A stretch of DNA of 51,174 nucleotides from Ruminococcus sp. (GTDB taxonomy: Bacteria; Bacillota; Clostridia; Oscillospirales; Ruminococcaceae). A program made the position numbers and the translations under genes. The notes below the pieces were generated by a model. The model ran no database searches, was not told the DNA's origin, and saw only the letters and a program-made list of their open reading frames with translations. How positions within the stretch are numbered: the first letter of the stretch is position 1; each line of letters starts with the position of its first letter. Of the stretch, positions 13,495 through 19,584 are shown piece after piece. The stretch spans positions 1 through 51,174 of the forward strand of contig SVNP01000016.1 of assembly GCA_015066805.1 (NCBI GenBank). The letters are read 5' to 3'.

Positions 13495-14520
13495 TCAGTC
13501 GCGGAACTGTTCCAGCACTCTGACATCCGATTCAAACAGCAGCTTGATGTTGTTGATGCCGTATTTCAGCATGGCGATACGCTCCACACCCATACCGAAA
13601 GCGAAGCCGGTGTAAACATCGGGGTCAACGCCGCAGTTTTCCAGTACATGGCGGTTGACCATGCCTGCGCCCAGCACTTCGATCCAGCCGGTATCCTTGC
13701 ACAGACGGCAGCCCTTGCCGCCGCAGGCAAAGCAGCTTACATCCACCTCAACGGAAGGCTCGGTAAAGGGGAAATAGGAAGGCCGCAGACGGGTCCTGAC
13801 CTGCTCACCGAAGATACGCTGTGCAAACACATCCAGCATACCCTGCAGATCGCAGAGGGTAATGCCCTTATCCACCACAAGGCCTTCCATCTGGGAGAAC
13901 ATAGGGGAGTGGGTAGCATCGTCATCGGAACGGAACACCTTACCGGGGGAGAGGATCTTAATGGGGGGCTGTGCGTTTTCCATGACACGGATCTGACCGG
14001 CAGAGGTCTGGGTACGCAGCAGCAGCTCCTCGGTGATGTAGAAGGTATCCTGCATATCACGGGCGGGGTGATCGGCAGGGGTATTGAGTGCGGTGAAGTT
14101 GTAGTAATCGTTCTCGATCTCGGGGCCTTCAAAGATGGTAAAGCCCATGCCTGCAAAAATGTCGATGAGCTCATTGACAATGAGGGTATCGGGATGCAAA
14201 GCACCCTTGCAGGCGCAGGGAGCGGGCATGGTTACGTCGATCTGTTCGGCAGCGTTTTTCTTTGCCAGCTCCTCGGCCTTCAGGCGGGCATCCTGTTCGG
14301 TAAAGAAATCCAGCGCCCACTGCTTCAGCTCGTTGACGATCTTACCGAAAGCAGGGCGGTCTTCCGGAGCCAGATCCCGCATATTCTTCATCAGTGCGGA
14401 GATCTTTCCGGTTTTATTATCGAGATATTGCTTCCGCAGCAGGTACATCTCTTTTGAATCGGTAATGGAGGCAGCAGCTTCTTCGATTTCCTGCTGCATC
14501 CGGCGCATTTGCTCATCCAT
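13495..14520 (-). CDS. pheS: Phenylalanyl-tRNA synthetase alpha subunit
   Basis: The 341-residue class II catalytic subunit. An N-terminal coiled coil ([15 protein letters not shown]...) binds tRNA. Motif 2 ([19 protein letters not shown]) and motif 3 ([18 protein letters not shown]) are intact. A four-Cys cluster, [12 protein letters not shown], lies just before motif 3 and could bind zinc. I start at 14520, where GAGAGGAAGG precedes the ATG; the in-frame codon at 14553 is close to the transcription start. It is first in the pheS-pheT(-gltA) operon. Confidence 0.96.
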
Positions 14521-14577
14521 AGGTAAAGATACCTTCCTCTCATGAAAAATCAAAAGGAAACAAAAATCCTATCTTCC

Positions 14578-14606
14578 AGTATACTCCAAATTCGGGAGAA
14601 TGTCAA
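14578..14606 (-). promoter_or_regulatory. Promoter of pheST
   Basis: Minus strand TTGACA (14606-14601), 17-bp spacer, TATACT (14583-14578). Only about 50 nt of leader separate it from the pheS start codon, too short for the T-box element that often controls this operon. Confidence 0.85.
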
Positions 14607-14622
14607 GTAAAAGTTGGGGGGG

Positions 14623-14662
14623 TTACAAGTAACCTCTGTGGGTGTAAATCAGAGAGGATGAG
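14623..14662. repeat. 40-bp direct repeat, copy 1
   Basis: Begins TTACAAGTAACCTCTG and ends CAGAGAGGATGAG. It matches copy 2 at 15023-15062 at 38 of 40 positions. Each copy contains CTCTG and CAGAG arms able to form a small hairpin. Confidence 0.85.
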
Positions 14663-14762
14663 GATAAGGAAGGGGATCGGAAGGGGGAAACTCAAGGAGA
14701 AGGGGAGATGTGAGTGTGCTAACACGAACACTTCCCTTCGCCTTGTGGTTCCCCCTTGCACT

Positions 14763-14838
14763 TACGGCTCAACCGTAAAAGTATGGATTGGCTGTAAATG
14801 ATGGGTTGACTGCAAAAACATGGTTTGACTGTAACAAC
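14763..14838. repeat. Degenerate 18-19 bp tandem repeats beside a small palindrome
   Basis: TTACGG-CTCAA-CCGTAA near 14763-14779 is a hairpin. It is followed by three head-to-tail units at 14783, 14801 and 14820 that share ATGGnTTGrCTGyAA. No gene covers this stretch. Confidence 0.6.
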
Positions 14839-14871
14839 GTGACTTGCTATCAATCTCATAGGTAACGCAGG

Positions 14872-14949
14872 TAAGGGGGGAACCCGACAGGAAAGGGGGG
14901 AGCGCAGCAAGCTGCTAATTCCCCCCTCTCCTTACGGGTTCCCCCCTTA
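14872..14949. repeat. 78-bp nested palindrome
   Basis: The outer arms TAAGGGGGGAACCCG (14872-14886) and its exact complement (14935-14949) pair over 15 bp. An inner 13-bp pair (AGGAAAGGGGGGA with TCCCCCCTCTCCT, one mismatch) and a central GCAGCAAGCTGC continue the stem. No T-run follows. Confidence 0.85.
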
Positions 14950-15022
14950 GACCCCCCTCCGCTTACCTCTCCCCTCTTAATTGCGCTATTCCAAGTGAAG
15001 CGGTGGGGGGATTTTTTTAGAT

Positions 15023-15062
15023 TTACAAGTAACCTCTGCGAGTGTAAATCAGAGAGGATGAG
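15023..15062. repeat. 40-bp direct repeat, copy 2
   Basis: It starts exactly 400 bp after copy 1 and differs at two positions. It ends 5 bp before the left inverted repeat of the ATPase element. Confidence 0.85.
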
Positions 15063-15067
15063 CAAGA

Positions 15068-15142
15068 ATGCCAAGAGTGCCACTTTTCACAGGGAGAAAA
15101 AGTGGCACCCTTGGCACCCTTGGCACCCTTGGCACCCTTGGC
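15068..15142. repeat. Left inverted repeat of the ATPase element, with 9-bp tandem units
   Basis: The first 63 bp (15068-15130, starting ATGCCAAGAGTGCCAC) recur inverted at 16306-16368 with one difference. Within the repeat, GCCAAGAGTGCCACTTTT can pair with AAAAGTGGCACCCTTGGC to form a long hairpin. The tail is four tandem copies of the 9-mer GGCACCCTT, then GGCCCC. Confidence 0.9.
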
Positions 15143-15183
15143 CCCCCCCAAAAAAATCCCTGCTGCCCATGATCGCTCAATAT

Positions 15184-15237
15184 ATTACAATTCGGTTACA
15201 AATTTGCAGCCTCTGCACGAAAACGTACAAGTTTTCC
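15184..15237 (+). promoter_or_regulatory. Candidate promoter of the ATPase gene with 11-bp tandem box
   Basis: Tandem boxes ATTACAATTCG and GTTACAAATTTG (15184-15206) overlap a -35-like TTTGCA. A 17-bp spacer and a -10-like TACAAG follow, embedded in AAAACGTACAAGTTTTCC (15220-15237). The same layout recurs before the phage remnant at 33575-33627. GAAAAC-N6-GTTTTC is also an inverted repeat and could be an operator. Confidence 0.55.
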
Positions 15238-15311
15238 CTTGTTTCTCCCTATGGTAAGGAGCTGTTTTTCATGCTCCCCCCATATGGTCAGACGTTGAAA
15301 GGAGTTTTATC

Positions 15312-16307
15312 ATGGATATTTCCAATCAGCAGCAGCCCGTTTCCGCAGGCTCCGTCATTTTCATGGATTCCGTACAGCCGCAGGAGGTCAGATGGCTTTG
15401 GTACCCCTACATCCCTCTGGGAAAAATCACCATACTGATGGGTGACCCCGGTGAGGGAAAATCTACCCTTGCACTGAATATTGCCGCAGCGGTTTCACGG
15501 GGGTTGGATTTCCCCGATCTGCATACTGTCCGTACACCGCCCCAGTTTGTATGCTATCAGAATGCCGAGGATGGTCTTGCTGATACCATCCGCCCAAGAC
15601 TGGATAAAGCAGGGGCAGATGCAAGCATGGTTCTTTGCCTGAATGAGGATACACAGGATGTATCTGTCATCAGCCATGGGTTAAAGGAGGTGATTGAAAA
15701 GCTGAAGCCCCGATTGGTGATTCTTGACCCTTTACAGGCATATCTGGGTGCAGATGTGGATATGCACCGTGCCAATGAGATCCGACCGGTGATGCATTAT
15801 CTGAGCAATCTTGCGGAGCAGCACGGCTGTGCCATTCTGCTCATCGGACATATGAACAAACGTTCTGATATGAAATCCTCTTACCGAGCTTTAGGCAGTA
15901 TTGATCTGACAGCAGCGGCACGTTCGGTACTGATCGTTGCACGGGATCCGCAGGCACCGGAGCATCGTGTGATCGCCCAGGTAAAGAATTCTCTTGCACC
16001 GGAGGGAGAACTGGTATCCTTTACCATTGATGAGGAAGGACATTTCCGGTTTGAGGGACCCTATGACATCACCGTAGACAAGCTTTTACAGGGCAGTGAA
16101 AATACCCGTCCCCGCAACCGTGCCTGTGAGCTGCTGCAGGAGTGGCTCACACAGCACGGCAGACTTTCCGTGGAAGAGATCATGGAGCTTGCAGATAGTG
16201 AGGGGATCAGCAAGCGAACGCTTAAGCGTGCGAAGTCGCAGCTTCCCATACAATCTGTGCGCAGCGGCGAAAAATGGTATTGGGAGCTATGCTCTCCCAT
16301 AACCTAA
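15312..16307 (+). CDS. RepA/AAA_25-type ATPase with C-terminal winged helix
   Basis: A 331-residue RecA-fold ATPase of the RepA/AAA_25 kind, related to plasmid and phage replicative helicases. Walker A is GDPGEGKST (44-52). Walker B is LVILDPL (135-141, D139), followed by a sensor segment ILLIGHMNK near 176-183. Residues about 265-320 look like a helix-turn-helix (LSVEEIMELADSEGISKRTLKRA). No primase or other replication gene is adjacent. AAAGGAG lies 7 bases before the ATG. The gene stands alone between near-perfect inverted repeats. It could be a relic or cargo of a mobile element, or a host-adapted DNA-binding ATPase; its activity is unknown. Confidence 0.85.
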   Translation: MDISNQQQPVSAGSVIFMDSVQPQEVRWLWYPYIPLGKITILMGDPGEGKSTLALNIAAAVSRGLDFPDLHTVRTPPQFVCYQNAEDGLADTIRPRLDKAGADASMVLCLNEDTQDVSVISHGLKEVIEKLKPRLVILDPLQAYLGADVDMHRANEIRPVMHYLSNLAEQHGCAILLIGHMNKRSDMKSSYRALGSIDLTAAARSVLIVARDPQAPEHRVIAQVKNSLAPEGELVSFTIDEEGHFRFEGPYDITVDKLLQGSENTRPRNRACELLQEWLTQHGRLSVEEIMELADSEGISKRTLKRAKSQLPIQSVRSGEKWYWELCSPIT

Positions 16308-16368
16308 GGGTGCCAAGGGTGCCAAGGGTGCCACTTTTTCTCCCTATGAAAAGTGGCACTCTTGGCAT
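16306..16368. repeat. Right inverted repeat of the ATPase element
   Basis: Inverted copy of 15068-15130, identical at 62 of 63 positions, with three 9-bp units against four on the left. It shares its first two bases with the ATPase stop codon (TAA). The internal hairpin may also end the ATPase transcript, though no T-run follows. Positions 16369-16431 show nothing further. Confidence 0.9.
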
Positions 16369-16431
16369 CCCCCCGAAAAAAACAGCACAGAGAACCCGAA
16401 CATTCCCTGCGCTGCCCCTCGAAATTCTGTT

Positions 16432-17325
16432 TTATTGTGTATCCCGTACCACCAATGCACGGCTGCCCATATCGGCGTATCGCTGCTCTACCAGCTCTCT
16501 GGACCACGATACCACCGTGCTGTTCTGCATGGGATCATTGAAATAATACTTCTCCGCATCATATCCCACCAGCACCAGACAATGCTCACGGGCAGGCCAG
16601 AAATACCATTCATCGGTCTGATTGCCCTCTGCATCCAGCAGATTCCAGCCGATGGCCTCATAGGTTTCCTTCATATACATAGTCGCCCAGACCATCACAG
16701 GGTCACCGTTTGGCAGATTGCTTTCCGCCAGCTCTGCCAGAGATTCCCCCTCCAGCGGAACCGCCGTTTTGCCTGCGGGGAGAAAATGATTCATCATCTT
16801 GCTCATCACAGGCGGAAAACATCCGAAGCTGGTTTCATCATAAGGGCTGCCGATAAAGGCATCATTGGGGTGATGTCCGTAGTTCTTGCCATCCGCCATG
16901 TAGGTGTATTTGGCATAGGTGTTGTCAATGATATCCGCAAGGGAGGGCTTGACCCCGTAATAATCCAGCACCATGCGTGCGCTGAACAGCTCACAGCCTG
17001 TGGGCAGTACGCCGTTCTGGGAATAATACGGCACCTCCAGCATCACGGAATCGGGTGGTGCGGCAGGCGTGGTGGTGGCAGTCGTAGTGGTGGTGGAGCT
17101 GTTTTCCGTCACAGACCCGTTGATATCGGCAGAAGTGGCTGCCGTTGTGGTCGTTGTTGTTGTAGATGTAGTTGTAGTGGTATGCTCTGCAACGGAATCC
17201 GCAGGGGGCTGATTCCCTGCACGGCTTACCGCCAGACCAATGCCCACCGCCAGCAGACAAACAGTCAGCAGCCCTACCGCAGCACCGGCAGAAAGGGGAA
17301 TGCGCTTTGCTTTGGAACGTTTCAT
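16432..17325 (-). CDS. Exported C39-family (peptidase_C39_2) cysteine peptidase
   Basis: A 297-residue membrane-anchored or secreted protein. A basic start (MKRSKAKR) and hydrophobic helix (residues 12-33) are followed by a Thr-rich linker (about 48-90) of the kind common in ruminococcal exported proteins. The papain-like C39_2 domain follows, with Cys in LPTGCELFS (C111), His in REHCLVLVGYD (H248) and Asp in NDP (D264). The substrate is unknown; the fold is used for cell-wall or bacteriocin-type cleavage. The ATG at 17325 has GGAGG 6 bases upstream; the in-frame TTG two codons earlier is too close to it. Confidence 0.85.
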   Translation of the reverse strand: MKRSKAKRIPLSAGAAVGLLTVCLLAVGIGLAVSRAGNQPPADSVAEHTTTTTSTTTTTTTAATSADINGSVTENSSTTTTTATTTPAAPPDSVMLEVPYYSQNGVLPTGCELFSARMVLDYYGVKPSLADIIDNTYAKYTYMADGKNYGHHPNDAFIGSPYDETSFGCFPPVMSKMMNHFLPAGKTAVPLEGESLAELAESNLPNGDPVMVWATMYMKETYEAIGWNLLDAEGNQTDEWYFWPAREHCLVLVGYDAEKYYFNDPMQNSTVVSWSRELVEQRYADMGSRALVVRDTQ

Positions 17326-17670: not shown

Positions 17671-19584
17671 ATGCGTACAAACAGAATCCTTGCCGCCCTG
17701 ATGTCTGCGGCCATGCTGACCGCTGCGGCTGCTGCCATGCCCGTGCAGGCAGAATCTTCTGCCGCCCTGTATGGCCGTGAGGAAAGCTATCCGTCCGGTT
17801 TTTATCTCCAGAACATAAAAAACACCCTGTACCGGCAGGTGGATGCCTATATTGCCGATGGGGAAGTGCTTGCGGCTCTGGAGGGCTTTCGAGGGGAATC
17901 CGCCATGCTGTACTGTACGGAGGACACCCCCGATTACGGGTATTGGCTGCCCAATAACAAACGGATCCCCCTGACGGAGGTTTTTGTGGTGGATCAGCTT
18001 GGCAGCAGCGTTACTGCCGTCATCGGTGACTGTTACGGTGCGGATTTTTCCGTGGAGGCCATACAGGCTGTTGCCGAAGCCTGCTTTGATGACAGCTATC
18101 GGATCACCATAACCGAAAATGCGGAGAACGGGCAGATCACCTGTAAGGTGTGGGATGTGCAGTGCCGTGAGGAAATGATTGCTGCGGGTCAGTCCTTTTA
18201 TGAGGCACTGACGGCGGAATACACCCTGTATACCTGTGAATATCTGCTTTCCAGTCTGCGGATACATCGTATCTTCTGTGCGGGAGCCTTTTATGCTCTT
18301 GAGCAGTACCCCGATGCCAAGGCAGAGCTGGAAGCCTTTGCGGCAGCCTATGCCCCCGATTGGTATGTGGCGGAGTATGAAGGCTTTGTGCAGCTCACCC
18401 CCACCGATCATACCGTTGATAATGCGGGGCATCTTGCCATGGCAGCCGCCGTCCATGAGCAGCTCGGCTATGAAATGTACATCGAATCCCGCAACCGTTA
18501 TTACGGGTATAGCCTGCGTGATTCCAATACTTTGATTCATTACATCACCGAAAATGTGCAGCCCACAGAGCTTTCTGCCATGACCCTTTCGGATTATACC
18601 CTTTGGCAGGGCGATGACGCATTCCTCATCCGCCCCCAGGGTGCGGAAAATGTCCCCCTCTATGTCACCGATGCCTATATTGAAAAATTGGACGGCTCCA
18701 TGTATTCTTCCGCCAATCTGGTGGCAGGTGCCCCCACAGAGCATATCATCTCCAACGGCTGCATGACATATGCAGGTACCCCCTATGAGTCAGACAGCGT
18801 GACCATGAAAAGAATAGAGGACATCGCCCGTTCTATCTTTGATGATACCTATATCATCGAAAATGAAGCCGCTGGAGTGATCCCGCTTTGCAATCATCTG
18901 GTCATCCGTGACCCCCTGATGCGGGATGATATCACAGAAAAGGCCATGGCGCTGTGTAAGGCTCTGGCACAGGAGCATAATTTCCGCAGCATGACCTGCT
19001 GGGAGGGTGTCTTTTCTGTCACGGGGCTGCAGCCCTCTCAGGAAACCTGCCTGCCCGATTCCTTTGCGTCCTATCGCTACGAGGCCTTCCCCGATGCAGC
19101 GGAAGCCCTGACCGCCTTTGCGGAAGCCTACGCCCCCGATTGGTATGTGCGTGAGCTGACAGCACAGGATGCTTCCGGCGCATTGGTACCTGTGGGAGCC
19201 TATCTCTGCCCCAAAACCACCGATGCTCTGCGTCCCTACGGTACGGTATCGCAGCAGCTTGATATGGCACAGCTTGTGTATGAAACACTGGGCTATCGGG
19301 TAGCTGCCGTGGCAGGCCGCAACACTCCCTACTTGGAAGAAGCCGCCCACGATATTTCAGGTACCGTTGAGCGTACCTACGCAGGGGATGCGGATCTCAG
19401 CGGCAAGGTGGATACCACCGATGCCATCTCCGCCCTGCAATCCTATGTGGATGTGGACCTGCTGGGGAATGCCGGTGAACTGACCCAGCTCCGTCGGAAG
19501 TTGGTGGACTGCAACGGTGACGGTACCGTTACCCCCGAAGATGTTATAGATATTCTGAGGATCTACACGGCCGGGTTGGGCTGA
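17671..19584 (+). CDS. Secreted dockerin protein with a duplicated unknown module
   Basis: A 637-residue exported protein. The signal peptide is residues 1-27 (cleavage after PVQA). Two related modules follow, about 40-300 and 300-560; the segment DAKAELEAFAAAYAPDWYV near residue 214 matches DAAEALTAFAEAYAPDWYV near 475. FDDSYRITI is matched by FDDTYIIEN. The C-terminus (572-637) is a type I dockerin with two calcium loops (GDADLSGKVDTTDA and DCNGDGTVTPEDV). The dockerin should dock it to a cohesin scaffold on the cell surface. I recognise no catalytic domain. AAAGGAGG lies 7 bases before the ATG. Confidence 0.85.
   Translation: MRTNRILAALMSAAMLTAAAAAMPVQAESSAALYGREESYPSGFYLQNIKNTLYRQVDAYIADGEVLAALEGFRGESAMLYCTEDTPDYGYWLPNNKRIPLTEVFVVDQLGSSVTAVIGDCYGADFSVEAIQAVAEACFDDSYRITITENAENGQITCKVWDVQCREEMIAAGQSFYEALTAEYTLYTCEYLLSSLRIHRIFCAGAFYALEQYPDAKAELEAFAAAYAPDWYVAEYEGFVQLTPTDHTVDNAGHLAMAAAVHEQLGYEMYIESRNRYYGYSLRDSNTLIHYITENVQPTELSAMTLSDYTLWQGDDAFLIRPQGAENVPLYVTDAYIEKLDGSMYSSANLVAGAPTEHIISNGCMTYAGTPYESDSVTMKRIEDIARSIFDDTYIIENEAAGVIPLCNHLVIRDPLMRDDITEKAMALCKALAQEHNFRSMTCWEGVFSVTGLQPSQETCLPDSFASYRYEAFPDAAEALTAFAEAYAPDWYVRELTAQDASGALVPVGAYLCPKTTDALRPYGTVSQQLDMAQLVYETLGYRVAAVAGRNTPYLEEAAHDISGTVERTYAGDADLSGKVDTTDAISALQSYVDVDLLGNAGELTQLRRKLVDCNGDGTVTPEDVIDILRIYTAGLG

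Follow-up and report, generated by a model that had tools for sequence, protein, structure and literature searches.

A lone RecA-fold ATPase gene between inverted hairpin ends in Ruminococcus sp. and a possibly mobile family of such units

The ATPase unit and its hairpin ends

The window, that is the whole stretch of 51,174 nucleotides analysed here, is contig C10 of the genome of a Ruminococcus sp. (G000; 2.07 Mb, 39 contigs, about 80% complete). It carries a one-gene unit bounded by two arms of 63 nt each (15068-15130 and 16306-16368), which are complementary at 62 of 63 positions (98%) with a spacing of 1175 nt and reach a gapped inverted-repeat score of 121 against a maximum of 26 among 30 shuffles. 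The gene between the arms (15312-16307, forward strand) encodes a RepA/RadA-like AAA_25 ATPase of 331 aa (E 1.8e-32) with a RecA-like core and a C-terminal region that may be a winged helix. It is preceded by a ribosome-binding site AAAGGAG recognised by eye (15298-15304, forward strand) and ends in the TAA codon at 16305-16307, within which the right arm starts. The closest match of the protein in a PDB profile search was RadA (E 1.2e-7), and RepA of RSF1010 (1g8y) matched weakly (E 0.009). The remaining ORFs of at least 60 aa between the arms are short and overlap the ATPase gene (at most 79 aa if fully inside), and no transposase, nuclease or recombinase, integrase, relaxase, primase or initiator was seen among the ORFs of the unit.

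The left end (15063-15146) consists of a hairpin CAAGAATGCCAAGAGTGCCACTTTT..AAAAGTGGCACCCTTGG and four gene-facing 9-bp units of CACCCTTGG, and the arm at 15068-15130 that matches the right end forms part of it. The right end (16306-16368) is an inverted copy of the left end in which three gene-facing 9-bp units of AAGGGTGCC are followed by the hairpin, the units of both tails having been read from the sequence. Folded as DNA, the hairpins gave z -3.4 at the left end (3 of 200 shuffles as good) and z -5.7 at the right end (0 of 200). The preliminary description of this DNA, which had reported the near-perfect arms, the single ATPase gene, a hairpin and a tandem tail in each repeat, the right repeat beginning at the stop codon and the lack of a transposase or recombinase, was thus borne out in its anatomy. 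Between the left end and the gene lies a leader dyad TCTGCACGAAAACGTACAAG (15212-15231; motif GTTGYACGNNNRCGTRCAA with 2 mismatches), which is likely an operator or part of a promoter.

Outside the left end is a noncoding repeat block (14623-15062), parts of which occur in or beside hairpin pairs on other contigs. It contains 40-bp repeats (14623-14662 and 15023-15062) and two GC-rich hairpins (14681-14757 and 14872-14949) whose arms are conserved and whose loops vary, and parts of these hairpins recur on C9, C19, C21, C28 and C29, partly without the hairpin of the unit. Pieces of the block lie within the hairpin pairs of C29 and C19, beside the hairpin of C28, and without any such hairpin on C9 and at two places on C21. 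As the similarity to other copies in G000 extends left to about 14623, position 15068 is not necessarily the true left edge of the repeat. Elsewhere in the window, the ORF at 17671-19584 ends in a C-terminal repeat which, by eye, we take to resemble a dockerin domain.

The unit was also weighed as a settled host gene whose hairpins serve as terminators or insulators, since the right hairpin begins at the stop codon and both hairpins coincide in part with terminator-like matches. This is very improbable, as there were 3 terminator-like matches against a shuffle mean of 1.9, there is no strong T-run downstream of the right hairpin, the position of the unit differs between species and noncoding hairpin pairs are dispersed. 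A known RNA motif was likewise rejected: within 14500-16500 of the window the 70 Rfam matches were all under the gathering scores and mostly to microRNA families, and across 110,782 bases of 16 loci two tRNAs alone reached the gathering score. For a defence system, PADLOC gave only weak matches (mad8, TRIP13) over short stretches.

Hairpin copies and related ATPase loci

A pattern built from the two hairpin arms had seven copies in G000, one of 30 genus genomes, and none in the 29 others. By BLAST, the hairpins of G000 (present on C19, C21, C28 and C29 besides the window) form four inverted pairs (C10, C19, C29 and C21) and one single hairpin (C28), and what the pairs enclose is the ATPase gene, a copy of that gene with a deletion, or noncoding DNA. 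The hairpins of C19 lie about 400 nt apart and those of C29 about 650 nt apart, both around noncoding DNA, and C21 is the window unit minus about 746 bp (15290-16035, most of the gene), with both ends kept and the second hairpin degraded. Internal deletion with the ends retained is a common origin of MITEs. Within G000 the hairpin did not behave as a common genome-wide repeat unlinked to the gene, a possibility raised in the preliminary description. A scan of a wider genome contig collection gave at least 113 stretches with the hairpin pattern, and those listed came from many Bacteroidales and scattered taxa, carried one hairpin each and were taken as unrelated to the window hairpin. Six stretches in viral contigs matched the pattern, one of them with two hairpins 230 nt apart.

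An ATPase match was present in 41 of 61 genomes, G000 included, and in 69 of 396 genomes of a wider family search. The window and 20 loci picked from the listed matches, which do not cover all of them, were sorted by their neighbours into 11 lone-gene loci (window included) and 10 loci in other settings. Around seven of the lone loci the tested neighbours were housekeeping genes (guaA, pyruvate/ferredoxin oxidoreductase, lepA, threonyl/alanyl-type tRNA synthetase, radical SAM, ftsK, two aminotransferases, hypD and a short-chain dehydrogenase). The lone status of the window, with pheS as its neighbour, and of L214, L215 and L226 was judged by eye from the ORFs, and because of contig ends the flanks of L212 and L226 are visible on one side only. 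Inverted ends clear of the shuffles were found at 8 of the 21 loci, which divide into 8/11 lone and 0/10 other-setting loci; among the remaining lone loci, L212 is borderline, L211 is lone and without an inverted pair, and L226 has less than 300 bp of upstream sequence. Testing of 28 and then 20 further loci added G429 (genus g44), with two units whose inverted ends are clear and whose neighbours, judged by eye, are housekeeping genes. In this count L300 and L339 are one locus, L310 stayed under the flag threshold (score 28, shuffle maximum 24) and L340, though flagged by the script, was dropped because its 16-bp match, which on either side lies over 500 bp away from the gene, was taken as chance.

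The ATPase lies within clear inverted ends in 7 genus genomes (and is lone in 9) and in G429, despite differing end sequences, and these units stand at differing places across species and not at one conserved locus, an outcome that would have spoken against the preliminary description. A tree built from 46 selected ATPases placed the proteins from inverted-end loci (ten clear, together with the borderline L212) and those of L211 and L226 in one group of 13, whose support of 92/91 is just under the mark of the tree for firm branches. The leader dyad, with at most 2 mismatches, was present at 10 of the 11 lone genus loci, at 0/10 other-setting loci and at 0/2 loci of G429. Motifs such as GDPGEGKS were invariant across seven proteins from six genomes. 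As a separate observation, a stretch of about 7.1-7.5 kb with a family ATPase is identical or 99.9% alike at four places near contig ends in G227 (L327-L330); it may be a multicopy element at which the assembly was interrupted.

Six other-setting loci were tested for neighbour families, and Mob_Pre relaxase was found in 3, MobA/MobL with TraG in 1 and a serine recombinase in 1, the neighbours of L225 giving no family match. These neighbours speak for a remnant of mobilizable elements, in which the ATPase and a hairpin origin would be a chromosomal replication module, now immobile, whose hairpins were spread by other means; according to PMC5704250, some integrative and mobilizable elements (IMEs) have RepA-type genes, by which their excised form could be maintained. 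We consider this origin improbable, as the lone units group in the tree, have their own leader dyad within the genus, keep two ends that match each other and conserve the ATPase. The 3' hairpin was also weighed as an oriT of Mob_Pre because its CACTTT..AAAGTG superficially resembles the oriT repeat of pMV158 (PMC5863519), an idea weakened by the distance of 0.75-1.4 kb between the ATPase stop and Mob_Pre in the five loci checked. It is weakened also in that two of these loci (L218 and L220) have a separate hairpin of the TCAGTAGTGGATG..CCACTACTGA type about 95 nt before Mob_Pre, which is a candidate oriT; L213 has a weaker hairpin 134 nt before Mob_Pre, and none was listed near Mob_Pre in L219 and L221.

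Empty sites, other cargo and the design of the ends

The pheS flank of the window had a listed match in 26 of 29 relatives, and on none of the 26 contigs was there an ATPase match, so that the window site looks specific to G000, a reading weakened by short contigs. The right flank of the unit had no match outside G000 among the matches listed, and an exact empty site for the window unit was not found among the relatives, whose likeness in the protein genes compared reaches about 82% at most. Of the empty sites that the preliminary description had asked for, none was found for the window unit and one was found for a sister unit. This sister unit, of about 1.36 kb, lies in G025 with a small ORF on one side and hypD on the other, and both G020 and G024 lack it. 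Its two flanks, of about 1.25 kb each, are 79.5% and 80.3% alike to G020 and stand 16 bases apart there; at some 80% identity the edges can be placed only to within some tens of bases. G024 shows the same empty arrangement. With two relatives, both of them empty, the comparison would fit either an insertion or a deletion. At a second site, a noncoding hairpin pair in G024 corresponds to a single hairpin in G020 between flanks that are 94.7% and 96.2% alike, and this single hairpin is composed of the outer arms of the two G024 ends. The two sites lie about 1.3 kb apart in G020 (contig C24, about 316.8 and 318.1 kb, locus L403), and the region is perhaps a local hot spot. The sites of the ATPase units on G024:C89 and G004:C28 had no close match in the approximately 1.58 Mb of G020 that the search covered. 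No target-site duplication was recognised by eye at the pairs viewed or at the G025 empty site.

Similar ends were also found around another gene, and together with the noncoding pairs of C19 and C29 this agrees with the earlier proposal that the repeats might occur with other cargo or with none. In G020 (L347, C15) and G024 (L348, C19), inverted ends of 99 and 80 nt enclose one gene for a membrane protein of 288 aa, and at the orthologous place in G004 (L351, C86) ends in the code of G004 enclose a homologue of 297 aa. The protein is 43% identical though the DNA flanks are 88-92% identical, and the locus is a fast-changing cassette site. Of 30 genus genomes, 4 had the membrane-protein gene. 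A distant homologue in G027 lacks ends of this kind, and the protein matched no Pfam family above the cut-off.

Since this unrelated gene sits within similar ends, such ends do not belong to the ATPase exclusively. G020 has the inverted-end cassette and the single hairpin, yet lacks any ATPase match, which indicates that the ends persist, and may spread, independently and which slightly favours a passive cassette resembling mobile insertion cassettes, with ends owned by a transposase or recombinase encoded elsewhere and with the ATPase and the membrane-protein gene as cargo. The like ends around a different gene and around noncoding DNA fit such a cassette, as does the lack of a visible cutting enzyme in the window unit. 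We nevertheless regard it as unlikely, since the ATPase recurs within the clear inverted ends of the 7 genus genomes and G429 in spite of their differing sequences, and since the 3' hairpin is frequent at ATPases outside the lone lineage too. A known mover of hairpin ends, the Y1 transposase of the IS200/RAYT type, is rejected here: PF01797 matched in 3 of 30 genus genomes (G001, G014 and G022), none of them with an inverted-end unit among the loci tested, and the 7 genus genomes that have clear inverted-end units all lacked a match.

The frequency of the 3' hairpin was assessed with a hairpin score of at least 9 at the ATPase stop codon, reached at 31 of 60 family loci compared with 7 of 235 control stretches drawn from those loci themselves and 0 of 60 shuffles; the 60 loci include several near-copies, so their independence is overstated. 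This commonness in the wider family suggests that the gene is more than a chance passenger. In the first set of loci the score was reached, over the stretch tested, at 2 of 10 other-setting and 4 of 11 lone loci, and in view of these low numbers and of the near-copies we infer, rather than observe, that one hairpin came with the gene and that the lone lineage gained the inverted partner.

The end sequences are unrelated between most species, while the two ends match within each unit. By eye they share a design of a hairpin or tandem tail with units of 7-9 bp, often starting with CAAG, and tails directed inward, so that the ends of most units read CAAG..CTTG. G002 and G027 depart from this in that their outer matching arms are AGGAGG or CT-rich tracts and not CAAG hairpins, and tracts of this type recur in several of the genomes. 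The two units of G429 have differing hairpins and the same inner segment. In G002, two otherwise similar noncoding copies of one module (downstream of L216, and L273 on C88) swap ATTG/CAAT for ATCT/AGAT throughout their CAAG and CTTG units, with one CAAGATTT unit in common. Inverted doublets occur beyond G000 in G004, G024 and G010, in small numbers for which there was no random model, and the hairpins of G024:C85 match the end of the G024 ATPase unit over 62 nt (92%) and 73 nt (79%). In a CAAG-triplet scan of 22 genomes, the matches listed numbered 6-31 in the ten genomes with a lone ATPase and 0-19 in the other twelve; these ranges overlap, the matches are mostly coding or other repeats, and only inverted pairs were used. 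Two further repeats were noted, namely CT-rich tandem tracts of the CTCCTCACTCCTAACT type, of which at least dozens are dispersed in G027 and fewer in G002, G009 and G010, and a GC-rich repeat found many times across several genus genomes including G004, G024 and G025.

A possible mechanism and comparison with known systems

We lean, with modest confidence, towards an ATPase-hairpin element that is mobile or was so until recently and that has a RAYT/REPIN-like layout in which a RecA-fold ATPase replaces the transposase. The element would comprise the ATPase gene, its 3' hairpin and a second, inverted copy of the hairpin 5' of the gene; noncoding hairpin pairs would be MITE-like derivatives, and similar ends could enclose other single genes. 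A RepA/RadA-type motor, hexameric by analogy, may act on the single-stranded hairpins and either drive exchange between the ends or load at them. As each end is nearly palindromic, the inverted ends double as near-direct repeats, which makes recombination or template switching between them possible. An exchange between the ends might release the interior and leave one hairpin, or run in reverse, with cutting and joining presumably supplied by the host or a helper element. Such exchanges would account for the loss of the interior to one hairpin, for internal-deletion copies, for change of cargo and for matched ends. Three pairs of G000 were compared in this orientation, and their ends agree at no more than 75-83% over 45-60 nt, which would make them a poor substrate for RecA recombination and counts against this explanation. 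Also weighing against it are the lack of a visible nuclease or recombinase in the unit and of a recognised target-site duplication, the ends of G020 beside no ATPase match, the missing inverted pair at the lone L211, the departing arms of G002 and G027, the low hairpin scores in the first set of loci, the overlapping ranges of the CAAG-triplet scan and the unsharp left edge of the window unit. The preliminary description had weighed a small element mobilised in trans or a gene kept between paired structured ends; its small one-gene unit with structured ends is supported, and mobilisation in trans would be a supposition.

A bolder version, possible and rather doubtful, is a transposon-like family that moves with the RecA-fold ATPase as its sole protein and uses a short hairpin 'code' as its address. 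One code of 4-5 nt, repeated through tandem units and hairpin arms alike, would then be common to both ends of a unit, and a switch would replace the entire code (compare the two module copies of G002). The ends could be rewritten in concert at each cycle through ATPase-driven fold-back or strand-exchange copying.

The nearest known layout is that of RAYT genes, which are always flanked by two inverted REPs according to PMC2817692, while REPINs are inverted doublets of such repeats (PMC3116915). Both systems place one gene between two inverted palindromic repeats and disperse the repeats as inverted doublets whose sequence varies by genome (PMC2817692, PMC3116915). They differ in that the gene of the window type encodes a RecA-fold AAA_25 ATPase and not a Y1 nuclease, in that the ends of the ATPase units are 7-9-bp tandem units, often CAAG/CTTG, whereas RAYT repeats have a GT(A/G)G head, which was not seen by eye on the repeats of the ATPase units, and in that the hairpin copies here are few, with pairs roughly 0.4-1.6 kb apart. 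The RSF1010 replicon likewise has a RepA-like ATPase and one initiation hairpin (ssiA/ssiB) per strand (PMC4434180). Unlike it, the ATPase unit is chromosomal, has no primase or initiator gene in sight and matches the RepA profile weakly (E 0.009). With IMEs (PMC5704250) the units share related ATPases, some of which have a 3' hairpin. The lone units differ from IMEs in having neither integrase nor relaxase, and 0 of 10 other-setting loci have inverted ends around the ATPase.

Like the present units, MITEs and mobile insertion cassettes are bounded by short inverted ends, between which lies either noncoding DNA or a passenger gene. C21 and G024:C85 share their ends with a gene-bearing unit in the manner of MITEs, C21 by internal deletion. 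In contrast to MITEs and cassettes, there is no known parent transposase, and it is the ATPase that recurs as the sole gene, with ends that vary. Among the literature listings searched, no account of a lone ATPase flanked by inverted hairpins was recognised, and the lone ATPase-hairpin unit would be new in kind provided that no transposase acting in trans owns its ends. The small mobile elements known so far have their ends cut by a nuclease, either their own or a borrowed one, while the gene that recurs here between changing hairpin ends encodes a motor ATPase. If the ATPase moves DNA, a minimal mobile element would have been made in a new way; if its role is limited to loading on the hairpins, the unit would offer a simple system for the recognition of hairpin start sites by helicases and would also show how paired ends stay matched despite sequence change. 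Such units would account for part of the dispersed hairpin repeats in these bacteria.
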